Assembly (NCBI GenBank): GCA_002070565.1
Contig: MWDM01000001.1
Coordinates: 62,001-126,000 of the forward strand
Length of the DNA stretch: 64,000 nt
Direction: 5' to 3'
Source of the DNA: Bacteroidetes bacterium ADurb.Bin139
GTDB lineage: Bacteria > Bacteroidota > Bacteroidia > Bacteroidales > UBA932
In this document: one piece after another, positions 15,442 to 44,467 of the stretch
Position numbering within the stretch: the first letter of the stretch is position 1
Layout of the letters: each line of letters begins with the position of its first letter
The notes under the pieces: model-generated
The model's database searches: none
The model's input: the letters and a program-made list of their open reading frames with translations, nothing else
What the model was told of the DNA's origin: nothing
Translations under genes and position numbers: made by a program

Positions 15442-16485
15442 TTACATACCCGGACTTTCCAGCGGAATAGATTTTCCGCCCGGTGTAATTAAGGTACATC
15501 CGGCGGAAACGTCACAGATATGTCCTATGATATCCAGGCTGTATTCTTTGCTTAGGGTTTCATAGCTTGCAAGCGGCAGGGTAAAGAGCATTTGAAAATC
15601 ATCTCCGCCGTTGAGAGCGGCCACAAGCGGAGAAGGTTCATTGTTATTTGACTCGGCATATTCAAAACATTCCCGGGCTATGGGGATCTTCTGGACGTAT
15701 ACTTTTGCACCGGTTCCCGACGCTTTTGCAATACTTAAGATGCCATGTGACAAGCCGTTGGAAAGCAAACACATAGAGGTTGGTACGATGTCGTCTTTTC
15801 TCAGGTTTTCCAATAATGCCCGGGGCAACCCAGGCTTCAGGTATTGTTCCAGGATGTATTCATATCCCTTCAAATCAGGAAGTTGGTCTTTCCCTGCTTC
15901 TCCGTTAAACACCTTTTTCTCGCGCTGCAGCAGGTGCAGCCCCATATAAGCAGCACCAATACTGCCACTCAGGCAAAGTAGATCGTGCTCACGGGCTCCG
16001 CTGCGGCGTGTCATAAGGCCGGCGTTGCCTTCACCCACTGCCGTAACCGCCAGGCTCAATCCCGTATAGGAAGACTGGATGTCAACCGCTGTGACATCGG
16101 CCCCGTAGAGGCGTGCTGCAGCTTCTATACCTACAAAGAGTTCGTCCAGATCCTCAACAAAAAAGCGCTGGGATACACCCACGCAAACCAGCAATTGAAG
16201 CGGGACCGCATTCATGGCCATAACTTGTCCCATGGCGTGAATAGATGTTTTGTATCCGATAAATTTAAGGGGAAAATAGCTCAGATCGAAGTCCACTCCC
16301 TCGAGCGACATTTTTTGTGCCGAAACGGTTAGTGCTTCACCAAAACAGGCGACCGACGCATCGTCCCCGATACCCTGAAGTGTTGCTTCATTACTTGAAG
16401 TAAAGCGGGTTGAAATTCTGTCAGTCAATACATATTTACCCAGGTCGCGTATAGGTGTTCTGGAGGGTTCTTTTTTATCGCTCAT
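15442..16485 (-). CDS. thiL: Thiamine-monophosphate kinase
   Basis: 347 aa, AIR synthase-like ATP-dependent kinase converting thiamine phosphate to thiamine diphosphate, the active cofactor. 'GIGDDASV' near residue 40 is the N-terminal nucleotide/metal motif, 'DVTAVDIQ' near 130 and '[14 protein letters not shown]' near 293 are further family signatures. The ATG lies only 4 nt after a TATTTTTG -7 box, which predicts a leaderless transcript. No other ATG occurs for about 70 codons. It is transcribed alone, divergent from sufB. Confidence 0.92.
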
Positions 16486-16489
16486 ACCG

Positions 16490-16517
16490 CAAAAATACGG
16501 AAAAGATGGTATATTTG
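16490..16517. promoter_or_regulatory. Ultra-compact divergent promoter of thiL and sufB
   Basis: TATTTTTG on the minus strand (16490-16497) is 4 nt from the thiL ATG, and TATATTTG on the plus strand (16510-16517) is 6 nt from the sufB ATG. Only 12 bp separate the boxes, and the whole intergenic space is 38 bp. The -33 region of each promoter must lie within or beside the other gene's start. Confidence 0.7.
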
Positions 16518-16523
16518 CGGGCT

Positions 16524-17972
16524 ATGAAAGAAAATCAGAACGACATACTGAAAAAAATTGCAGAAAGTGAGTATGCGCAAGGTTTTGTGACGGATCTGGA
16601 GCAGGATGTTTTTCCAAAAGGATTGGATGAAACCACCATAAGTAAGTTGTCTGAAAGAAAAGAAGAGCCTGGGTGGCTGCTTGAATTCCGGCTCAATGCG
16701 TATCGAAAGTGGCAGACTATGAAAATGCCGGAATGGGCTCATCTGACAATCCCACCCATTGATTACCAGGATATTATTTATTATGCAGCGCCCAAAAAGC
16801 CTGCCTCGGGAACAGAAGCGGGGATGATAGATCCCGTTCTGGCCGACACCTTTGACAAACTGGGCATCCCCCTGCACGAAAGGAATGTGCTGGCCGGAAT
16901 GGCCGTTGATGCCATATTTGATTCTGTTTCGGTAAAAACCACCTTTAAGGAAACCCTAGCCGAGAAAGGGATCATCTTCTGTTCTTTTTCCGAGGCAGTC
17001 AGGGATTATCCTTCCCTGGTCAGAAAATACCTGGCCAGCGTGGTGCCCGTGGGAGACAATTTCTTTGCAGCCCTCAATTCCGCTGTGTTTTCCGACGGAT
17101 CTTTCTGCTATATTCCAAAAGGCGTGCGCTGTCCCATGGAACTGTCCAGTTATTTCAGGATCAACGCCCGCGGTACCGGACAGTTTGAAAGAACGCTTAT
17201 TGTAGCCGAGGAAGGCTCTTACCTGAGTTACCTGGAAGGATGTACAGCACCTCAGCGGGACGAAAACCAACTGCACGCAGCCGTGGTTGAAATTGTAGTC
17301 ATGCAGGATGCCGAGGTGAAATACTCAACGGTTCAGAACTGGTACCCGGGCGATTCAGCGGGAAAAGGCGGCATTTACAATTTTGTAACCAAGCGCGGAA
17401 TCTGCAAGGGAGCCAATGCCCGGCTCTACTGGACACAGGTAGAGACCGGATCGGCCATTACCTGGAAATACCCTTCGACCATTTTGCAGGGGGACAATTC
17501 GGTCAGTGAATTTTATTCGGTGGCCGTTACAAAGAATTACCAGCAGGCCGATACCGGGACAAAAATGATCCATATCGGGAAAAACACCCGCAGCCGTATT
17601 GTGAGCAAAGGCATATCGGCCGGGCACAGCCAGAATTCTTACCGGGGACTGGTCAGGATACTGCCGGGAGCCGAAAATGCCAGGAACCATTCACAATGTG
17701 ATTCTTTGCTGCTGGGAGACAAATGCGGCGCCCACACCTTCCCGGTTATTGAAAACAGCAACGATAGTTCTGTTGTGGAACACGAAGCCACCACTTCAAA
17801 AATTGGTGAAGACCAGCTTTTTTACTGCCGTCAGCGGGGTATAGGACCGGAAGACGCAGTAGGGCTGATAGTAAACGGCTATGCGCGTGAAGTGCTGAAT
17901 AAGCTGCCTATGGAGTTTGCCGTCGAGGCGCAGAAATTATTAAACCTCTCGCTGGAGGGAACGGTTGGCTGA
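16524..17972 (+). CDS. sufB: Fe-S cluster assembly scaffold SufB
   Basis: 482 aa beta-helical scaffold subunit of the SufBCD complex, which builds Fe-S clusters in the cytoplasm. '[20 protein letters not shown]', '[14 protein letters not shown]' and '[20 protein letters not shown]' are conserved SufB segments, the last holding the cysteine used for cluster assembly. The ATG at 16524 is chosen because the longer open frame runs back through the promoter and into thiL. The stop overlaps the pnuC start by one base (TGATG). No sufS or sufE is seen nearby; the cysteine desulfurase must be elsewhere. Confidence 0.96.
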
Positions 17973-18631
17973 TGAAAGAGTTTTTTAACCTGCACAACAT
18001 ATTTTTTGTCATAGGGGGACAAGGCATCTCCTACCTTGAATTTTTTGCTGTTCTCTTTGGGCTGACTTCGGTTCTGCTGGCCAGCCTGGCACGTGCCATA
18101 AATTATTGGATCGGCTTCATATACACCGCCCTGCTGTTTATGATGTTTCTTCAGAAAAACTTGTATACCAACATGTTGTTGCAGCCTGTTTCTTTGGGGA
18201 TCAACATCTACGGATTGTACCGCTGGACCAGGCCGGGCCAGGGTGAAAAGAACAGTAACAACCAGCTCAGGATAACTTTTCTCAACAACCGGCAACGGGT
18301 GATGTACGTCATCCTGTTAGCCTGTTTTGTGCTGGTCTGGGGATTTATCCTGACAAAACTTCATATCATTTCACAAGCGTTTCCGCCTGCCAGTACACCC
18401 TACCTGGATTCGCTGGTGGCCGGCCTGATGCTCGCAGCACAGATCCTGGCGGCACAGAAAAAATGGGAGTGCTGGATATTCTGGGTAGCCCTCAACATTG
18501 GGAATGTGATTTTGTATGTCTCTAACGGTCTGGTGTTTATGCCAATTGTTGCCATGTGCTTCCTGGTTTTAAATATTATTGGGGTGTTTCACTGGAAGAA
18601 GGAGTGGAAAAAACAAAAAATGTTATGTTAA
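17972..18631 (+). CDS. pnuC: PnuC-family vitamin transporter, inside the suf operon
   Basis: 219 aa inner-membrane protein with about seven hydrophobic helices. The PnuC family imports nicotinamide riboside, and relatives (PnuT, PnuX) import thiamine or riboflavin. The family's substrate-site W-x-x-W is seen as 'WECW' followed by 'IFWVALNIGN', and the helix ends 'YGLYRW' and 'GVFHWKKEWKK' are typical. The start overlaps sufB by one base and the end overlaps sufC by 7 nt, so it is a fixed operon member. Substrate cannot be assigned; thiL is the next gene upstream on the other strand, which keeps thiamine possible. A second paralogue lies at 36583. Confidence 0.86.
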   Translation: MKEFFNLHNIFFVIGGQGISYLEFFAVLFGLTSVLLASLARAINYWIGFIYTALLFMMFLQKNLYTNMLLQPVSLGINIYGLYRWTRPGQGEKNSNNQLRITFLNNRQRVMYVILLACFVLVWGFILTKLHIISQAFPPASTPYLDSLVAGLMLAAQILAAQKKWECWIFWVALNIGNVILYVSNGLVFMPIVAMCFLVLNIIGVFHWKKEWKKQKMLC

Positions 18632-19365
18632 GCATTAAAGATTTACATGTAAATATTGGGGATAAGGAAATCCTCAGGGGAATAAATCTGGAAATAAAGC
18701 AGGGAGAGATTCACGCCATCATGGGCCCTAACGGATCCGGGAAATCAACCCTTGCGGCTGTGCTGGCAGGAAGGGAAATGTTTACCGTTACCGGAGGATC
18801 TGCCCATTTTATGGGGCAGGATCTGTTTGCAATGACTCCGGAGGAAAGGGCACGCATGGGATTATTCCTTGGATTCCAGTATCCGGTCGAAATACCGGGT
18901 CTGACCAACGTGAATTTCATGAAAGCGGCCGTTAACGAGCAAAGAAAACACAAAAACCTGCCTCCGTTGTCATCGGCAGAATTTCTCAAAATCATGCGTG
19001 AAAAAATGGCCATTGTGCAGATGGATCCCTCTTTTGTGGGGAGGGGCGTGAATGTGGGCTTTTCGGGTGGGGAAAAGAAAAGGAACGAGATTTTCCAGAT
19101 GGCCATGCTTGAGCCCAGGCTTGCGTTTCTTGACGAAACAGACAGCGGGCTGGATGTGGATGCACTGCGTGTTGTGGCACAGGGTGTCAATAAATTGAAA
19201 ACGGTGGAAAATGCATTTGTGGTGATTACACACTATCAGCGCCTGCTCGATTATATTGTGCCGGATATAGTACACGTAATATATAAGGGACAGATTATCC
19301 GTACAGCCGGGAAAGAACTGGCGGCCGAGGTGGAAAACAGAGGATACGATCATATTATTAATTAG
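18625..19365 (+). CDS. sufC: Fe-S cluster assembly ATPase SufC
   Basis: 246 aa ABC-type ATPase that drives conformational change in SufBCD. Walker A is 'GPNGSGKST' (about residues 34-42), the ABC signature is 'FSGGEKKRNEI', and Walker B is 'LAFLDETDSGLD'. The ATG at 18625 gives the conserved SufC N-terminus 'MLSIKDLHVNIGDKEIL' and lies inside the last codons of pnuC. sufD follows after 2 nt. Confidence 0.96.
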   Translation: MLSIKDLHVNIGDKEILRGINLEIKQGEIHAIMGPNGSGKSTLAAVLAGREMFTVTGGSAHFMGQDLFAMTPEERARMGLFLGFQYPVEIPGLTNVNFMKAAVNEQRKHKNLPPLSSAEFLKIMREKMAIVQMDPSFVGRGVNVGFSGGEKKRNEIFQMAMLEPRLAFLDETDSGLDVDALRVVAQGVNKLKTVENAFVVITHYQRLLDYIVPDIVHVIYKGQIIRTAGKELAAEVENRGYDHIIN

Positions 19366-19367
19366 CC

Positions 19368-20405
19368 ATGACTGAATATACCTATATGCCGGAAGTACGG
19401 CGTGTTTTCAGCTGTACCGTTCCTAATGCCAATATCAGGCAGGTATTCCTGATGGACGGCATCTTGCAGGACCCCGTGTCCGATGCCGGCGGGATCGTGT
19501 TGCAAAAGGGACCGGACCAGATGGGCCTGCGGTTGCATATTACCGGGGATCATTCAGACGAGCCCATCCAGATTATCAGTGTGCGTAGTGAAGACCTGCC
19601 GCAACCCCTGGAATTTTCCACCTCCTGGGAGCTGGCTGCAGGAGCTTCTGCACAGGTGATTGTCTGTGATCATACCCTGAATGAATACTTGTACAGGACC
19701 TTCCGTTTTTCACAAATAAAACTTGGGCAGGGAGCCAGGCTGGATATTCTTTTCATGCAGAACGAGCACGAACTTTCCAGGTACTGTCTTGACATAAAGG
19801 CCGGACTTGACAGGGATTCGCAACTGGATTGCCACATCCTGAGTCTTTATGGAGGGACCATACAAAACAAGTTACAGGTGAGTATGCCACAGCCGGGAGC
19901 CACGTGCAACCTGGATGGACTGTACCTGGCAGACAGAGAACAGGCAGTTCATTATGATATTGCTGTACGTCACCTAAGCGAAGGCTGCCATTCACAACAG
20001 CTGTTCAAGGGAATTCTGGACAACAAGGCCAGAGCTTCTTTCAACGGAGCTATATATGTCGCTCCCGGGGCGCAGAAGACACAAGCCTACCAGGCCAACC
20101 ACAACCTGCTTCTGACCCGTGAAGCTAAGATTACCACCAAACCACAGCTTGAAATCTATGCAGACGATGTAAAATGTTCGCACGGGGCGACCATTGGACG
20201 CCTTGATGAACTGGGCCTTTTTTATCTGCGTTCCAGGGGAATTTCCCTGGCCGAAGCGCAAATGCTCCAGCAGATGGCTTTTGTCCAGGATGTGCTGGAC
20301 CGGGTGCACACCCGGTCTATCCGTTCAAGGTTGGAAAAAATGGTGGAAAGCCGGTTGCGTGGCGAATTCACAAGATGTTCACATTGCACCATGCATTGTT
20401 GTTAA
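19368..20405 (+). CDS. sufD: Fe-S cluster assembly protein SufD
   Basis: 345 aa, shorter than SufD of Enterobacteria but in the range of Bacteroidota. It pairs with SufB to form the beta-helix scaffold. 'GAIYVAPGAQKTQAYQANHN' and 'DDVKCSHGATIGRLDELGLF' are the conserved SufD segments, the second with the histidine thought to work with SufB. The C-terminus ends 'CSHCTMHCC', a cysteine- and histidine-rich tail that is unusual and could bind metal (inference). Last gene of sufB-pnuC-sufC-sufD. The 119 bp that follow hold no gene. Confidence 0.93.
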   Translation: MTEYTYMPEVRRVFSCTVPNANIRQVFLMDGILQDPVSDAGGIVLQKGPDQMGLRLHITGDHSDEPIQIISVRSEDLPQPLEFSTSWELAAGASAQVIVCDHTLNEYLYRTFRFSQIKLGQGARLDILFMQNEHELSRYCLDIKAGLDRDSQLDCHILSLYGGTIQNKLQVSMPQPGATCNLDGLYLADREQAVHYDIAVRHLSEGCHSQQLFKGILDNKARASFNGAIYVAPGAQKTQAYQANHNLLLTREAKITTKPQLEIYADDVKCSHGATIGRLDELGLFYLRSRGISLAEAQMLQQMAFVQDVLDRVHTRSIRSRLEKMVESRLRGEFTRCSHCTMHCC

Positions 20406-36582: not shown

Positions 36583-37275
36583 TCAATTTGTCAGCGAGGC
36601 AGATTTGGCAGCCTTTTTCCACACTACCAGGCCGTGAATGGAGTTAAGCAGGTATACACACCACATAGAGGCAATAATCAGATGGCTGGCCTGGCGCTCG
36701 TTGAAATAGGCCATACTCCACATGGTGATGGTTGCCAGGTTGACAATGATCCATAGATACCACTGTTCCGAATACGTTTTTACCATAAGAAACATGGCCA
36801 CAATGGACAGGAATGTTGTGGCCGAATCAAGAAAAGGGGCCGGGTCTTCAAAATAATCCAGGATCAGGCCTCCTCCAACAATCAGCACAAGGCAGACCAC
36901 TGCCAGAACCAGGCGCTGTTTTTTGGTCAGGTTTTTTGCTTTGACACGGGTACGGCTGCCTTCCCGGGTGCGTCTTCTCCACATGAAAAATCCGATAAAC
37001 TGCATGGGAACATAATACAATCCGTTCAGGGCCACCTCGCCCCAGTAGCCCACGCCCCAGGAAAGGTATGTATACAGGCTTACCTGTATCAGTCCAAAGA
37101 GGTAATTGGAAATATGACCCTTGGCAACCAGCACCACACACAGAACACCAGAAACGGTGGCAATTGCAGAAAGGGCATCCCATTCCCCCGTTATGAAAAA
37201 AACGGCAAAGTTGAGCGCTATGATTGTCGTCAGAAGAAACCACTCGTAAGGAGAGAAAAAACGCAGGAATTTCAT
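36583..37275 (-). CDS. pnuC: Second PnuC-family vitamin transporter
   Basis: 230 aa inner-membrane protein with about seven helices. The W-x-x-W of the family is 'WYLW' followed by 'IIVNLATITMW', and 'YYVPMQFIGFFMWRRRTREG' is the characteristic helix end. Clearly a paralogue of, not a copy of, the protein at 17972: sequence is only weakly alike. It starts 6 nt after the large gluzincin gene stops, so both belong to one transcript. Nicotinamide riboside is the commonest substrate; thiamine is an alternative. Confidence 0.86.
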   Translation of the reverse strand: MKFLRFFSPYEWFLLTTIIALNFAVFFITGEWDALSAIATVSGVLCVVLVAKGHISNYLFGLIQVSLYTYLSWGVGYWGEVALNGLYYVPMQFIGFFMWRRRTREGSRTRVKAKNLTKKQRLVLAVVCLVLIVGGGLILDYFEDPAPFLDSATTFLSIVAMFLMVKTYSEQWYLWIIVNLATITMWSMAYFNERQASHLIIASMWCVYLLNSIHGLVVWKKAAKSASLTN

Positions 37276-37281
37276 AAAGAA

Positions 37282-40185
37282 TCAGTAAAAAGCAGGTATT
37301 GAAAACAAGAATTCAACGTGGTGTTTATCCTCACATGTATAGGCATAGCGTATGCCGGCAATGAGGGCCGTTCCTATGCGGAAGAGGTGGAAATCCATCA
37401 GCAGATCGGTTCCCACAGACCAGTAGTGTTTTTTGGTCTGGTCTTGCTGCCGTGTATGCATGTAATCGGCAAACGGGATAACCTGGAAGCGTTTGATGTA
37501 AATAATATCGGGAATGGAAGGATCTCCTGCCCAGATGGGAATGGCATAATCGGCCGAGGCTTTGAAACCCGTGGGAGACAGGATCCGGTCTTTCATGCCC
37601 CGGGGCGGGGAGAGGAACGTTGCCAGGTAGAAATAGCGGTCTTTGATTTGTTGCTGCTGCCAGGCCACACTCCATTTAAGTGCCTGGTTGCGCATTATCC
37701 CCGGAAGGTATCCGTAAGCCTGAAGGTACAGGATGTTGGTAAACAGATTTCCGGTACCCGGAGAAAGAGCTGTCTGCAGGTTGACACCGAATCCCAGCCT
37801 GGGAAAAATATCCCGGGGGGCAAGGTTGACCATTTGGTAATATTGCAGACCGGCCTGTAAGAGATGGTTCAGCAGATCAGTGGCGGGTCCGGGGATTTGG
37901 TAACTGTCGTTGGAAAAAGTGTATTTCAGAGAGGGAACCAGTCCGCGTTGCCATCCGTGACGGTGGAAGGTGAAGGGAATATAGGCCTGCAGGGAGGCTT
38001 CCACCGAGGGTGTTCCCAGGGTATCCGATACCCAGCGCCGGTGCTGTAACTCTTCCACAGAAAAAGTATGAATACGGGGACGGTTGTTAATATCAAGCTT
38101 GAGGGAAAAAACAGGGAGCAGGCCCGAATAATCCAACCTCAGGTGACCGGTATGAAAACCCTTGTGATAGGAGTATCCCAGCACAGAAGTAAGCGTGCCG
38201 AGGGTATTCTGTGACATGATGGTGGCACCGGCAGCCACCGTGTTGTAATAGGTCTGGAAAGTGAATTGCTCTATTTCGTTGTAGTTGAAATAAAAAGGCA
38301 TCCAGGAATGGAACCTGAAGGCGTTCAGAATTTTGGTGTATTTTTTGACAGGGTAGGAAAGATTTTCCGGTACACGCAGGTTGTCTATGTTGAAATCCGG
38401 AGACGGGGCCAGGATAAAAGGATCTGACGGCTGCTCCTTCCAGTCTGCAGGTTTAAGAATCAGGCTGTCTGTATGCAGCCTGGTAAGCTGATACCCGCAG
38501 ACCGAATAATTTGAATAATACAGATACTTCTCCTTCTCAGTGCCGGGTGGCAGGGGATCAAAGGCCCCGAACCTGGCGTTGGTATATTTCAGGATACTTC
38601 CGTTTTCAGGGTCAAGGCAGAAAATATTATCTGTGTTGTCCACACGGTCACTTGTGAAATACAAAAGTCCGTATGCCTCTTGAAGCCCTGCAAGGGAATG
38701 GAACCCAGGTTTCAAGACAGTTTTCCAGCTTTTTTTCTCCCTATCCAGCTTGTAAATCCCGGAACCTTCTTCCCCGGTCATCAGGACAAAAAGCGTATTA
38801 TTATCCAGCCAGGCTGTTTCTGTGAGCTGTTCCCCACGGGGAGCCGGATGCCTTTCCAGGAGTTCTCCCGTCCAGGTGTTCAACAGGTGTAATTCCGAGC
38901 CGCCCTGCGCGGGGTAATGGACCACAGCCAGAACACTTCCGTCGTCGCTGGTAACCGGATTGAAATAACGGGTCCGGGGCAGGAGGGTTTTTTTTTCACC
39001 TGTCAGGGTGTTATAAGAAATAATAAGCGAAAAGTTCTCATGGGCCCAGCGGTGTCCGCTCACCGTCTCACTCCAGAATATATACGGGCCCCAGGCAGAC
39101 AGGGATGAATTGATGTTGCCAAGCAGGCAGACTGCTTCTTCCCGGTCATTTTCCGGAAAAGGGAAACGCACCAGGCGTGCAGTCTGGGCAAGGGAAGTTT
39201 TAATGGCATAGATAAGATGGGTTCCATCGGGATTTTTAGCCATGACGGCTGACCTGTAACTCACATAATCCCTAGAGGGACGATTGATTTGTTGGCCGCT
39301 ATATAATGGGGTTTTCCGCTTGTCCTGGTCCTTCCAGATATTCTTATAGTACTCAACGGCGGGTTCCCATAATTTGACCGCAGGATACCCGTAATTCCTG
39401 CGAAACGTCTTCCCTTGAATAAAGGGCCAGTAGGGGTATTTTGTAATATCCGAATATATGCGGGCCAGAGCATCTTCCCCTGAAAACAGGCGGGCAACCG
39501 ACAGTTTCATATACCCCAGCGCATAATGGTCAGGTATCGCATGACGGTAGGAGCCATACCGCCATTTATCATAGGGGAATTGTTTCCCCTCAAGAAAAAA
39601 GGCTTTGTACGGCATCAGGAACGAGGCTTGCCTGCCCCGCCCGGCACCGGAAAAGAACGTTTCGGTGATGACAGCATCTCCTTCCAGCATCCATTTTGGG
39701 AAATAAAGGCCCACAGAAATACCTTCCGATTGTTGCCCGAAGAACCAGCTGAATACACGGAAAAAATGATCTCCCGCCTGGTGCATTTGTGACACATGCC
39801 TTGTTTCGTGCAGGATCAGCTGTTTTTCCCAGTTATTGGTGCTTCCGGATGAAGGAGGTGTGGTTATGAGTTCCATTCTTTTGGGAGCCCAGACCACCAT
39901 GCCATTGCTGTTCAGATTATAGGGATGGATTACTATGGGAATTGCCGGAGTCGCAGATCCCGGCAAGAGCTGGACATAGGGTGAGGTCTGCTCCAGCAGC
40001 CAGGCATAGCGGAAAGCCAGTGAATCAATGCCATCAGGGTATATGAGGCGGAAAGAGCCGATCCGGATCTGATTCCATTGCAGGCGGGCCGGATCTTCTC
40101 CTGTACTGTAATATTGACCGTGCGCGTTAAGGGAGGGTCCTGTAAGGAACCAGAGCAGGAAAAAAAATGCAATCAGTCTGTTCAT
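37282..40185 (-). CDS. Secreted gluzincin/beta-propeller/outer-membrane barrel protein
   Basis: 967 aa from the ATG at 40185 with a signal peptide ending 'LNAHGQ' (about residue 24). A zinc-metallopeptidase motif 'LILHETRHVSQ' (HExxH at about 126-130) is followed by 'PKWMLEGDAVITET' near 164-177, the downstream glutamate of gluzincins. Residues 280-600 have TolB/PD40-like repeats ('RYFNPVTSDDGSVLAVVHYP', 'GIYKLDREKKSW'). The last 330 residues look like an outer-membrane beta-barrel of alternating aromatic strands ending in '...SIPAFY', with a terminal aromatic residue as barrel assembly needs. It is probably a surface-anchored or periplasm-facing peptidase. No named family recognised. Its -7 box ends 4 nt before the ATG. 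Confidence 0.75.
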   Translation of the reverse strand: MNRLIAFFFLLWFLTGPSLNAHGQYYSTGEDPARLQWNQIRIGSFRLIYPDGIDSLAFRYAWLLEQTSPYVQLLPGSATPAIPIVIHPYNLNSNGMVVWAPKRMELITTPPSSGSTNNWEKQLILHETRHVSQMHQAGDHFFRVFSWFFGQQSEGISVGLYFPKWMLEGDAVITETFFSGAGRGRQASFLMPYKAFFLEGKQFPYDKWRYGSYRHAIPDHYALGYMKLSVARLFSGEDALARIYSDITKYPYWPFIQGKTFRRNYGYPAVKLWEPAVEYYKNIWKDQDKRKTPLYSGQQINRPSRDYVSYRSAVMAKNPDGTHLIYAIKTSLAQTARLVRFPFPENDREEAVCLLGNINSSLSAWGPYIFWSETVSGHRWAHENFSLIISYNTLTGEKKTLLPRTRYFNPVTSDDGSVLAVVHYPAQGGSELHLLNTWTGELLERHPAPRGEQLTETAWLDNNTLFVLMTGEEGSGIYKLDREKKSWKTVLKPGFHSLAGLQEAYGLLYFTSDRVDNTDNIFCLDPENGSILKYTNARFGAFDPLPPGTEKEKYLYYSNYSVCGYQLTRLHTDSLILKPADWKEQPSDPFILAPSPDFNIDNLRVPENLSYPVKKYTKILNAFRFHSWMPFYFNYNEIEQFTFQTYYNTVAAGATIMSQNTLGTLTSVLGYSYHKGFHTGHLRLDYSGLLPVFSLKLDINNRPRIHTFSVEELQHRRWVSDTLGTPSVEASLQAYIPFTFHRHGWQRGLVPSLKYTFSNDSYQIPGPATDLLNHLLQAGLQYYQMVNLAPRDIFPRLGFGVNLQTALSPGTGNLFTNILYLQAYGYLPGIMRNQALKWSVAWQQQQIKDRYFYLATFLSPPRGMKDRILSPTGFKASADYAIPIWAGDPSIPDIIYIKRFQVIPFADYMHTRQQDQTKKHYWSVGTDLLMDFHLFRIGTALIAGIRYAYTCEDKHHVEFLFSIPAFY

Positions 40186-40189
40186 CACA

Positions 40190-40197
40190 CAAAGGTA
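40190..40197 (-). promoter_or_regulatory. -7 box 4 nt before the gluzincin start
   Basis: TACCTTTG on the minus strand is followed by TGTG and then the ATG at 40185, predicting a leaderless mRNA. It sits in the 28 bp between the tRNA-Gln(CUG) 3' end and the gene. Confidence 0.62.
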
Positions 40198-40213
40198 ACT
40201 GATTGTTTTAAAG

Positions 40214-40284
40214 TTGAGCTACCAGGACTCGAACCCGGACCGACAGAGCCAGAATCTGTAGTGCTACCATTACACCATAGCTCA
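40214..40284 (-). tRNA. tRNA-Gln (anticodon CUG)
   Basis: 71 nt cloverleaf: acceptor TGAGCTA/TAGCTCA, anticodon stem ACAGA/TCTGT around loop TTCTGGC (anticodon CTG), T loop TTCGAGT. The discriminator base is A. The 3' CCA is not encoded. It follows tRNA-Gln(UUG) after 7 nt and is probably cut from the same transcript. Confidence 0.95.
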
Positions 40285-40291
40285 TTGTTTG

Positions 40292-40362
40292 TTGAGCTAC
40301 CAGGATTCGAACCTAGACAGACAGAACCAAAATCTGTAGTGCTACCATTACACCATAGCTCA
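40292..40362 (-). tRNA. tRNA-Gln (anticodon UUG)
   Basis: 71 nt cloverleaf, with the same acceptor, D and anticodon stems as its neighbour; loop TTTTGGT gives anticodon TTG. It differs from the CUG gene at about six positions. Transcribed from the box at 40374-40381. CCA is not encoded. Confidence 0.96.
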
Positions 40363-40386: not shown

Positions 40387-40842
40387 TTAGCGTTTTCCGG
40401 CAAAAAAATCTTTTAATAATTTTCCGGCCTCTGTGGCCAGTATGCCGGCCGACACTTCTGTTTTTGGATGGAGTATCCTGTCTTTGAAAAGGGAGTACCC
40501 CCTTTTGGGATCGGAAGCTGCATATACCAGGCGGCCCAATTGAGCCCAGGAAAGGGCGCAGGCACACATGGCACAGGGTTCCAGGGTCACATAAAGGGTA
40601 CACTGGTCCAGGTATTTTCCGCCCAGGGTATTGCAGGCAGAGGTGATGGCCTGCATTTCTGCATGCGCTGTAGGATCGTTAAGGGTTTCTGTCAGGTTGT
40701 GAGCCCGGGCAATGACCTTTCCGCGGCAAACGACAACAGCTCCTACCGGAATCTCGTCCTTTCCGCGTGCGGCTTGCGCCTCTTCAAGCGCTTTCCGCAT
40801 ATACAGCCTATCTTGTGAGGGGCTTTCCAAAACGCTTTTCAA
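40387..40842 (-). CDS. tadA: tRNA-specific adenosine deaminase
   Basis: 151 aa zinc-dependent deaminase that turns A34 of tRNA-Arg(ACG) into inosine. 'PTAHAEMQAI' supplies the zinc histidine and catalytic glutamate, and 'TLEPCAMCACAL' the two cysteines. The start is uncertain: homologues have about eight residues before 'YMRKALEEA', so translation likely starts at a TTG (40842 or 40830); the ATG at 40800 would remove the conserved lead-in. The N-terminus overlaps the end of the acyltransferase gene by 23-35 nt. Confidence 0.92.
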   Translation of the reverse strand: MKSVLESPSQDRLYMRKALEEAQAARGKDEIPVGAVVVCRGKVIARAHNLTETLNDPTAHAEMQAITSACNTLGGKYLDQCTLYVTLEPCAMCACALSWAQLGRLVYAASDPKRGYSLFKDRILHPKTEVSAGILATEAGKLLKDFFAGKR

Positions 40843-42592
40843 TTATTGAAAAATCAGAGATGTCTTTTGTAACCATCATCAGTTCTTCTTTAGGAATTTC
40901 AAGGACATCGCAAACAATGAAACCGTCCAGTGAATCGTTGAATTCCTTATCTATGTTGAACAATACAATTTTGGAGTTCAGTTTCAGGTATCTTTTCACA
41001 AGTGAAGGGAGCCGGTACTGCCGGTTGCTCATGCGCATCAGCAGGCGGTCCAGTTGCTCCGGTGTCTGGATATCACGCAAAAGGACATCGGGATCGACAA
41101 GTCCGAAATCCGGGGTAAAGGGGTTCCTGGCTCCGATACAACCCTGGTAGTCCATAGTGCTGTGGTGTTCCATGATGTACTTGTAGATGAGCGATTGATA
41201 CAACTTTGGATACCAGGAAGATATACTCACAGGGCCAATGAAATAACGGTATTCTTCGTTGCGGAGCATGATGTGGAACAGGCCCTTGAAAAGCAGCAAC
41301 ATGGGGATTGTTTCATAACGGTATTCCTGGCTTATGAAAGCCCTTCCAAGCTCCATGCTCTGCCACAGTATGGGTTCAAGACCCGGGCCAAATTTAAAGA
41401 GGGTGTTGTTGTAAAAACCCATGACACCAAAACGTTTCATCAACTCGGCTCCCATCCCTATCCGGTAAGCTCCCACGATTGCTTTTTTCTCAGAATCCCA
41501 GAGGACCAGGTGGTAGTAATTCCTGTCGAAGGTATCAAGGTCCAGGGGCTGGTATGTCCCTTCCCCGACGGTCCGGAATGCTTCCTCCCTTTTGCGGCCA
41601 ATTTCGTACATAAGATTAGGAATAAGGGAATAGGGGGCAAAATAGGCTGCAAAGTTATTGATATCGAACAGGCAATTGCGGGAAGGCAGCTGCTCAACTT
41701 CTCTGACGGCCAGTTCATGCTTTTTTGGGGGGGCAATGGGGGCGGCGTGTTCCGGTTCCTTAAATTTGTCTTTATTTTCTATATTGGCAGCCAGAGCATA
41801 CGTGCGGGCACGCAGATAGTCTCCCAGCTCTTTATAATCTGTATATCGCTGTTGTTCTGCCACGCTTATGGGGGACCCCACACGCACAGAAAGACGGCGC
41901 CCCTTTTTATTGAGCACTTCCGCCGGCAGGCTGGCTGTCTGCAGCATGGGGTGTATCTTTGCCCTGCGCAGGAAACGTACCGAATTATGTCCTTCAAAAT
42001 AAATTGGGACCACGGGAACGCCGGCATTCATGATGAATTTGACAATAGCGGTGTGCCATGGAATATCTTCTACCAGTCCGGAAGGACCTATGTGAGAAAC
42101 CTCTCCGGCGGGGAACAGACCCAGGGGATTGCCTTTTTGAAGACATTCCTTAGCCAGGCGGATTCCCGCTATGCTGGAACGCGAAGACACGTTTTTATCA
42201 AAAGCATTGACAGGTAAAAAAAAATTCTGCAAAGGCCTGATGCGCGACAGTAAGTAATTCACGATCACTTTCAAATCGGGTCTTTCCTCCGACACAAGAT
42301 GCATCAGGATGATTCCGTCCAGAGCGCCATAGGCATGGTTGGATACGGTTATAAAAGAACCTTCTTTGGGAAGATTGGCCAGGTCCAAGGAAGGGGTGTC
42401 ATAGGTAATGCGCATCTCGGCAAGAAAAGCCTCGAGACATTCACGACCCTCAAAGTCTGCCACCTTGTCATATAGTTTATTGATCTTATCGAGCTTCATC
42501 AGCTTCATCAGAGCCGGTGCAAGGAAAAAACCCACTATCGATTTTTCTCCAAAGACCTTTCGCAGATCTTTTGTTTCTATCAGTTTTTTCAT
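40808..42592 (-). CDS. Bifunctional aminolipid acyltransferase (OlsF/GlsB-GlsA fusion)
   Basis: 594 aa fusion of two acyltransferases. Residues 20-270 form a PlsC/OlsA-like O-acyltransferase with 'NHAYGALD' (HX4D, near 84) and 'GLFPAGEVSH' near 157. Residues 300-590 resemble OlsB/GlsB, the N-acyltransferase of ornithine or glycine lipid synthesis ('YYHLVLWDSEKKAIVGAYRI', 'GPVSISSWYPKLYQSL'). Together they could carry out both acylations of an amino acid, as known for OlsF. In Bacteroides glycine lipids are made by separate GlsB and GlsA. The ATG at 42592 was chosen since upstream sequence contains the promoter. Amino acid used: unknown. The enzyme is likely at the inner membrane. Confidence 0.85.
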   Translation of the reverse strand: MKKLIETKDLRKVFGEKSIVGFFLAPALMKLMKLDKINKLYDKVADFEGRECLEAFLAEMRITYDTPSLDLANLPKEGSFITVSNHAYGALDGIILMHLVSEERPDLKVIVNYLLSRIRPLQNFFLPVNAFDKNVSSRSSIAGIRLAKECLQKGNPLGLFPAGEVSHIGPSGLVEDIPWHTAIVKFIMNAGVPVVPIYFEGHNSVRFLRRAKIHPMLQTASLPAEVLNKKGRRLSVRVGSPISVAEQQRYTDYKELGDYLRARTYALAANIENKDKFKEPEHAAPIAPPKKHELAVREVEQLPSRNCLFDINNFAAYFAPYSLIPNLMYEIGRKREEAFRTVGEGTYQPLDLDTFDRNYYHLVLWDSEKKAIVGAYRIGMGAELMKRFGVMGFYNNTLFKFGPGLEPILWQSMELGRAFISQEYRYETIPMLLLFKGLFHIMLRNEEYRYFIGPVSISSWYPKLYQSLIYKYIMEHHSTMDYQGCIGARNPFTPDFGLVDPDVLLRDIQTPEQLDRLLMRMSNRQYRLPSLVKRYLKLNSKIVLFNIDKEFNDSLDGFIVCDVLEIPKEELMMVTKDISDFSIIEKRFGKPLTR

Positions 42593-42603
42593 AAATGGAT
42601 TAA

Positions 42604-42611
42604 CAAATATA
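42604..42611 (-). promoter_or_regulatory. -7 box of the aminolipid acyltransferase gene
   Basis: TATATTTG on the minus strand ends 11 nt before the ATG at 42592. On the plus strand TATTTTTA (42614-42621), one mismatch, ends 7 nt before uvrC. Both starts share 36 bp of intergenic sequence. Confidence 0.5.
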
Positions 42612-42628
42612 TGTATTTTTACAATGAA

Positions 42629-44467
42629 ATGATTCAGGTGTCGGACCAATTGGCTCTTTTGCCCCGCCAGTGCGGCGTGTATAGATTCCTTAACAACGAA
42701 GGAAAGGTGATCTATGTGGGAAAGGCAAAAGATCTGAAAAAACGCGTTTCCCAGTATTTTACCCGGGGGAAAAACCTTTCTGCCAAAACAAAACGCATGG
42801 TTAGCCAGGTACAGGCATTGGAATATACCGTGGTAGAAACCGAAAGCGATGCCCTGCTGCTGGAAAACAACCTGATCAAGACGCTACAACCCCGTTATAA
42901 CATACTTCTCAAGGACGACAAGACCTTTCCATGGATATGTGTAAAAAACGAACCATTTCCGCGTGTGTTTCAGACAAGGAAGATTGTAAAGGACGGTTCG
43001 CAATATTTTGGTCCCTACACCAGCGGCTATTATTGCAGGCAAATGTTGCAACTTCTGCACAACCTGTACCCGCTGCGCACCTGTTCCCTGGTGCTCACAC
43101 CTCGGGCAGTGGCAGCCGGTCGTTACCGCAAGTGCCTCCAGGCGCATATAGGCCGTTGCATGGCTCCCTGTACCGGAGAAGAGACCATGGAACAATACCA
43201 GGGGTACATTAGCGCAGTGACCAGCATTTTAAAAGGAGACGTGACATCTGTGAGAAAATTGCTGGAAAATCAAATGAAGAAGTTTGCAAATGCGCTCGAT
43301 TTCGAGCAAGCGCAGAAATTGAAGGAACAATGGGAAATACTTACCCGTTACCAGTCAAAATCGGTCATTGTTAATCCGCGCATATCCAACCTGGATGTGT
43401 TCAGCATTACGGTAGATGATAAATCGTCCATGGCTTTCGGCAATTTCCTGCGGGTTGCAGACGGAGCCGTTGTACAGTCGCTGAATGTGAAATATAAATT
43501 GCACATAGAAGAAGAACCGTCTGCGGTTTTGAGTTTGTTTATGGCAGAAATGAAAGATAAACTGGAAAAATTGTCCCCCGAGGTGGTGGTGCCGTTTCTG
43601 CCCGAAGCGGTTCCGGGCGACAGCCGTGTCCATGTTCCGGTCAGGGGAGATAAGCAGACGCTGGTCGCCCTGAGCATGCGTAATGCAGCCAACTACCGGA
43701 ACGAGCAGGTGCGTATGATGGAAATGCGTGACAGGGGAAACCGCCAGGAACAAAAAAACCGGAAAATCCTGACCGCCTTACGAGACGATCTCGGCATGAA
43801 GGAATCCCCTGTACATATAGAGTGTTTTGACAATTCAAACCTGCAGGGAAGCCATCCGGTAGCCGCCTGTGTGGTATTCCGGGACGGTGTCCCGAGTAAA
43901 AAAAATTACCGTCACTATACAATAAAAAGCGTGGAAGGGCCTGACGATTTCGCCTCAATGAAAGAAGTGGTGACGCGTCGCTACAGCCGTATTCTGGCAG
44001 AGAGCAGCCCCCTGCCGCAACTCATTGTAATAGACGGGGGTAAGGGACAGCTTTCTGCAGCTTATTCTGCTCTGCAAAGCCTGGGGCTGGAGCATAGCAT
44101 AACGGCGGTCGGACTGGCTAAACGGATGGAAGAGATTTACCTGGCCACCGATAAGACCCCACTGTTCCTGGATAAGAATTCTTCTTCCCTGCGGTTGCTC
44201 ATGCAGCTGCGCAACGAAGCACACCGTTTTGGAATCACCTTTCACAGGAAACAAAGAAGTGCCGGTTTTACACGGTCTGCCCTGCTGGAGATACCGGGAA
44301 TAGGACCCCGCACCCTGGAAAAACTCCTGCGTCACTTTGGAAGTCTCAGGCAGATTTCCCTGGCATCCAGGGAAGAACTGACAAAGGTTGTTTCCAATGC
44401 CCTGGCACTCAAAATAACAGAGTGGATCGGAACAAGTGGAACCTCAGCGCACCAAAATTCAACGTAG
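42629..44467 (+). CDS. uvrC: Excinuclease ABC subunit C
   Basis: 612 aa DNA repair nuclease that makes the dual incision with UvrB. N-terminal GIY-YIG domain ('GVYRFLNNEGKVIYVGKAKD'), a UVR motif near residue 205-240, an RNase H-like C-terminal nuclease domain ('HIECFDNSNLQGSHPVAACV', 'VIDGGKGQLSAA') and helix-hairpin-helix ('LEIPGIGPRTLEKLLRHFGS'). The ATG at 42629 gives the usual N-terminus. The last nine codons lie within an inverted repeat that runs past the stop (see 44436). Confidence 0.96.
   Translation: MIQVSDQLALLPRQCGVYRFLNNEGKVIYVGKAKDLKKRVSQYFTRGKNLSAKTKRMVSQVQALEYTVVETESDALLLENNLIKTLQPRYNILLKDDKTFPWICVKNEPFPRVFQTRKIVKDGSQYFGPYTSGYYCRQMLQLLHNLYPLRTCSLVLTPRAVAAGRYRKCLQAHIGRCMAPCTGEETMEQYQGYISAVTSILKGDVTSVRKLLENQMKKFANALDFEQAQKLKEQWEILTRYQSKSVIVNPRISNLDVFSITVDDKSSMAFGNFLRVADGAVVQSLNVKYKLHIEEEPSAVLSLFMAEMKDKLEKLSPEVVVPFLPEAVPGDSRVHVPVRGDKQTLVALSMRNAANYRNEQVRMMEMRDRGNRQEQKNRKILTALRDDLGMKESPVHIECFDNSNLQGSHPVAACVVFRDGVPSKKNYRHYTIKSVEGPDDFASMKEVVTRRYSRILAESSPLPQLIVIDGGKGQLSAAYSALQSLGLEHSITAVGLAKRMEEIYLATDKTPLFLDKNSSSLRLLMQLRNEAHRFGITFHRKQRSAGFTRSALLEIPGIGPRTLEKLLRHFGSLRQISLASREELTKVVSNALALKITEWIGTSGTSAHQNST

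Follow-up and report, generated by a model that had tools for sequence, protein, structure and literature searches.

Gene organization of the locus

The minus strand of the window (the whole stretch of 64,000 nucleotides analysed here) carries at 37282-40188 a long gene encoding a peptidase, a propeller and a barrel in one chain, as defined by its open frame and its homologues. The position given in an earlier note, 37282-40185, is correct and corresponds to initiation at an ATG at 40185 (967 aa); a GTG at 40188 (968 aa) is the other option for the start codon, and the stop codon lies at 37284-37282. A genome search found a single copy in the organism's own genome. Residues 1-23 (40117-40185, minus strand) form a putative signal peptide. 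The residue that follows, Q24, is kept in all 61 homologues that extend to that position and, according to the Bacteroidetes Q-rule for signal peptidase I sites (PMC5837995), cleavage by signal peptidase I before Q24 is likely.

We note that the sequence TACCTTTG (40190-40197, minus strand) matches the Bacteroidetes −7 box TAnnTTTG and begins 12 nt 5′ of the ATG, a spacing that is retained in several close relatives; a −7 box is found within 70 nt upstream in 38 of 78 loci, against a background of 3%. With the box so placed, transcription would start nearly at the ATG, possibly giving a leaderless mRNA. Immediately upstream is a tandem pair of similar tRNA-Gln genes with anticodons CTG and TTG (40213-40362, minus strand). 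The gene order in this genus is tadA, two tRNA-Gln genes, the peptidase-propeller-barrel gene, pnuC, groES and groEL, while in other lineages there are either uvrC and an acyltransferase gene nearby or no shared neighbours. No conserved operon partner was found across the loci, and the gene context thus does not name a substrate. The window also encodes, at 40808-42649 on the minus strand, a 613-aa protein consisting of an Acyltransf_2 half and an Acetyltransf_5 (GNAT) half, a layout that presumably resembles that of bifunctional ornithine- or glycine-lipid synthases.

The adjacent transporter gene, pnuC (36583-37275, minus strand; PF04973, E 6e-47), lies downstream, with 6 nt between the stop codon of the peptidase-propeller-barrel gene and its own start codon, so the two are likely to share one mRNA, as the earlier note supposed, although the link is lineage-limited: a survey of 75 testable Bacteroidales loci found pnuC adjacent in 30 and absent from this position in 45, the latter including loci of Bacteroides and Parabacteroides. 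The adjacency and the short gap would suit an arrangement in which PnuC imports a vitamin precursor that the enzyme frees and the barrel admits, but pnuC was found at none of 29 wider-phylum loci searched with 1.5 kb flanks and the genome has three PnuC-family genes, and we regard this arrangement as extremely improbable. A functional link to PnuC as a trait of the family was rejected, the adjacency being confined to part of the Bacteroidales loci. The second PnuC-family gene (17972-18631) is within a SUF iron-sulphur operon (16455-20405, plus strand), where a SufB-type gene flanks it on one side and a presumed sufC, encoding an ABC-transporter ATPase, on the other, with a second SufBD-core gene after the latter; the third is on another contig.

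Homologues and distribution

A homologue, mostly full length and with 24-81% identity, is present in 50 of 61 genomes of the same order. Scanning of species genomes brought up 484 related stretches, and 79 loci were kept from these; their titles name bacteria of the Bacteroidales or Bacteroidetes, Bacteroides salyersiae and Parabacteroides among them, and residue conservation was counted in an alignment of 64 homologues. When this 64-sequence profile was searched at the level of the phylum, 210 of 296 genomes matched with an E-value no higher than 1e-5, though in many of the weaker cases only the propeller was matched. The distant relatives fetched from this search encode HExxH followed by EGxA in 11/11 loci, within long open frames of roughly 950-1350 residues; all nine of those scanned against Pfam pass the cut-off for PD40 and two of the nine pass that for Peptidase_MA_2. 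The order of peptidase, propeller and barrel recurs in these relatives across Bacteroidota, and no homologues were found in viral contigs.

The window protein has no family match in Pfam or NCBIfam, and a search of the PDB with its single sequence gave no match of meaningful E-value; a literature search for the peptidase-propeller-barrel architecture found no paper. The three-part family is real, conserved and phylum-wide, and apparently undescribed as such in the literature. The earlier statement that no named family has this order holds in that no curated model matches the protein, although the combination of a propeller with an Omp85 barrel has been described (PMC4104836, in its account of such proteins). 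The terminal aromatic residue to which the same note drew attention is not conserved: among 79 homologues, 27 end in F or Y and 28 in L.

The zinc peptidase domain

Residues 37-291 (39313-40077, minus strand) form a predicted gluzincin-type peptidase domain, as indicated by its motif, its conservation, the structural model and a profile-profile link to distant relatives. The zinc motif recognized in the earlier note, HETRH with W-M-L-E-G-D-A downstream, corresponds to residues 126-130 and 165-171, with the third ligand, E168, within EGDA. None of the 64 aligned homologues differs at H126, E127, H130 or E168, and the motif is therefore not there by chance; loss of a zinc-site residue had been named as evidence against it, and none is missing. 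Also invariant in all 64 are E175, T176, the GRGR sequence at G182-R185 and Y221. In the AlphaFold2 model the HExxH motif lies on a helix spanning residues 119-137 and E168 on a second helix, 164-177. The peptidase domain is the best conserved third of the protein: 41 of its 255 positions are at least 95% conserved, compared with 7/264 in the propeller and 27/350 in the barrel. From these features the domain would be expected to bind zinc and to act as a peptidase.

Residues R129 and D170 covary, HExRH being always paired with EGDA and HExxH without that arginine always with EGxA. In one lineage (loci L091 and L093) the motifs are HESAH and EGGA, both the arginine and the aspartate having been lost while all zinc ligands are kept, and both residues are likewise missing from 11/11 distant relatives. 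Three seeming exceptions in the phylum set are due to a false motif upstream, and the motif list accounts for the few seen among the 79 loci. The joint change fits packing of the two zinc-site helices against each other and suggests that a salt bridge links them.

The nearest named family is Peptidase_MA_2 (Pfam PF13485), a gluzincin family that has the HExxH motif and the downstream glutamate within EGxA. Two of the distant relatives lie above its Pfam cut-off, whereas the window family falls under detection and differs from the distant relatives in having the coupled Arg/Asp pair (HExRH, EGDA). The window protein gave no match of its own to peptidase family profiles, nor did a peptidase-only profile find a match in a sequence search of the PDB; it is by profile-profile comparison that the domain is linked to the distant relatives (97.5%, E 6e-12), among them the two that pass Peptidase_MA_2.

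The propeller and the C-terminal barrel

The central domain, residues 308-571 (38473-39264, minus strand), is a TolB-like β-propeller, in agreement with the PD40/TolB-like repeats noted earlier; it matches TolB both by profile (E 3.7e-7) and by structure (Z about 22), and a propeller is present in the model. A search of each domain by profile had been suggested, and it is the propeller that responds to it, the peptidase and barrel of the window protein matching no Pfam peptidase or Omp85 model. With TolB as the closest propeller, the protein might be a peptidoglycan-linked hydrolase whose propeller binds close to Pal or the cell wall, leaving the gluzincin to cleave wall peptides or lipoproteins linked to the wall. 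No TolB_N was found in this genome, which would accord with that idea, although its absence rests on one profile and a genome that is 96% complete; moreover, the propeller type behind the TolB match is a common one and the protein is without a wall-binding domain, and a role of this kind seems very improbable.

When modelled with AlphaFold2 from 64 sequences, the 967 residues gave one confident three-part model (pLDDT 88.4, pTM 0.86). Structure prediction had been chosen beforehand as the check on which the proposed barrel-like end might fail, and the model has a barrel there, of 16 strands and of the Omp85 type, at residues 613-962 with its first strand near 625 (37300-38349, minus strand). 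Propellers took up the matches listed in a structure search with the full-length model, and the barrel was therefore modelled separately (pLDDT 88, 16 strands). All 50 of the PDB matches listed by Foldseek for this barrel, and all 50 of those listed by VIA-align 2 (Z 15.0-17.4), belong to the Omp85 superfamily, the best among the VIA-align 2 matches listed having Z 17.4 and an rmsd of 4.4 over 290 aligned residues; the proteins among the matches listed include BamA, TamA, FhaC, CdiB, Sam50 and Toc75. The loop that joins strands 11 and 12 (residues 847-871) contains the sequence P861-R862-G863, of which G863 is conserved in 64/64 homologues and R862 in 60/64, at a position that we take to be the site of the RG motif of BamA.

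The sequence of the barrel does not echo this structural likeness. Pfam Omp85 models match none of the 64 barrels, and among six distant barrels tested one reached 21.4 bits against Omp85_2, for which the cut-off is 23.1. Profile-profile comparison of the barrel with those of the distant relatives was not significant, leaving a sequence link between the barrels unproved; the same method found nothing against the organism's own BamA-like barrel, and a barrel-only profile had no match in a sequence search of the PDB. The assignment to Omp85 thus rests on fold. Since the superfamily is defined by fold, a Pfam match is no strict criterion for membership, and the C-terminal barrel, as modelled, has the Omp85 superfamily fold. 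Only the peptidase and the propeller precede it, and no POTRA domain is seen in the model. POTRA domains are usual in the superfamily, yet are missing from several named subfamilies including WD40-Omp85.

Relationship to known Omp85 proteins

WD40-Omp85 is the nearest described kind. As defined by Heinz and Lithgow (2014; PMC4104836), in the text given to this group, a propeller resembling TolB is joined to an Omp85 barrel with no POTRA domain, and the propeller of the window protein directly precedes an Omp85-fold barrel, as that definition asks. The text on the group names only a propeller ahead of the barrel, whereas the window protein, compared here by description, adds a zinc peptidase; the 'Metallo' group of the same account bears a different domain, PF00149. 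The likeness that its authors drew between WD40-Omp85 and a BamA-BamB fusion suggests that the window protein, with propeller and Omp85 barrel in a single chain, could be an assembly factor whose peptidase fold binds clients without cutting them. Such a binding-only role would not require conservation of the active site, and the presence of the zinc ligands and catalytic glutamate in every one of the 64 homologues and 11 distant relatives counts against it; we consider it quite improbable.

The nearest working analogue is PlpD, a patatin-like Omp85 protein with an N-terminal enzyme and a C-terminal Omp85 barrel, in which the enzyme is held at the outer membrane; it differs in having a patatin-like lipase in place of the zinc peptidase and POTRA in place of the propeller, and it is dimeric (PMC11116518). 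We place the window protein with the Omp85 proteins that bear an enzyme or a propeller and do not treat it as a separate kind. The M48 peptidase BepA of Escherichia coli has neither barrel nor propeller and belongs to a different peptidase family. Its resemblance, in what is said of it in PMC8423444, lies in being a periplasmic zinc peptidase near outer-membrane protein assembly.

Topology and possible function

A barrel with an even number of strands has both its ends on one side of the membrane, the C-terminal end being periplasmic. With the 16 strands of the model, the N-terminal domains would therefore also be periplasmic if they are not secreted through the barrel. The earlier note had suggested a peptidase tethered to the cell surface with its own barrel for transport or anchoring, and the barrel can indeed serve as an anchor, but the surface side is less likely than the periplasmic one. 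For the peptidase and propeller to act outside the cell they would have to cross through or beside the barrel; residues 24-600 do sit ahead of it in the manner of a passenger, and many Bacteroidota envelope machines point outward, as does the BAM dome with its surface propeller (PMC12578637). Secretion of the enzyme was also once proposed for PlpD, although on re-testing the enzyme domain was found to stay periplasmic (PMC11116518), and the Omp85 proteins that have been studied have periplasmic N-terminal domains. Q24, moreover, suggests signal peptidase I and hence no lipoprotein anchor to the surface. Placement of the peptidase on the surface is thus probably wrong, and we hold a surface peptidase to be unlikely.

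The even number of strands, together with the precedent of PlpD, leads us to favour a peptidase that is attached to the outer membrane on its periplasmic side. The protein would be exported by Sec and cut before Q24, after which the C-terminal barrel would insert into the outer membrane while the propeller and zinc peptidase remain in the periplasm, held at the inner face of that membrane. Zinc would be bound by H126, H130 and E168, with E127 as the general base, and proteins or peptides would be cut there; the propeller may stand in for the POTRA domains, most probably to recruit substrates or to gate their access. Processing or clearance of envelope proteins would be the likeliest role, BepA-like in kind with a PlpD-like, membrane-held layout. 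We consider this proposal as a whole, an outer-membrane-anchored periplasmic zinc peptidase that handles envelope proteins, to be reasonably probable. More tentatively, and with less conviction than doubt, we suggest that this is a Bacteroidota-wide protease family with a TolB-like propeller in the place of POTRA and an Omp85 barrel as anchor, forming a single-chain station for quality control or processing of envelope proteins.

The propeller-carrying members of the Omp85 superfamily are named as uncharacterised in the literature, and the family described here adds to them an apparently intact zinc peptidase. It is common in Bacteroidales, including loci of Bacteroides and Parabacteroides, while bearing no name in Pfam or NCBIfam. 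If its members are indeed periplasmic proteases fixed to the outer membrane, they would give this major phylum of the gut a new route for turning over envelope proteins.
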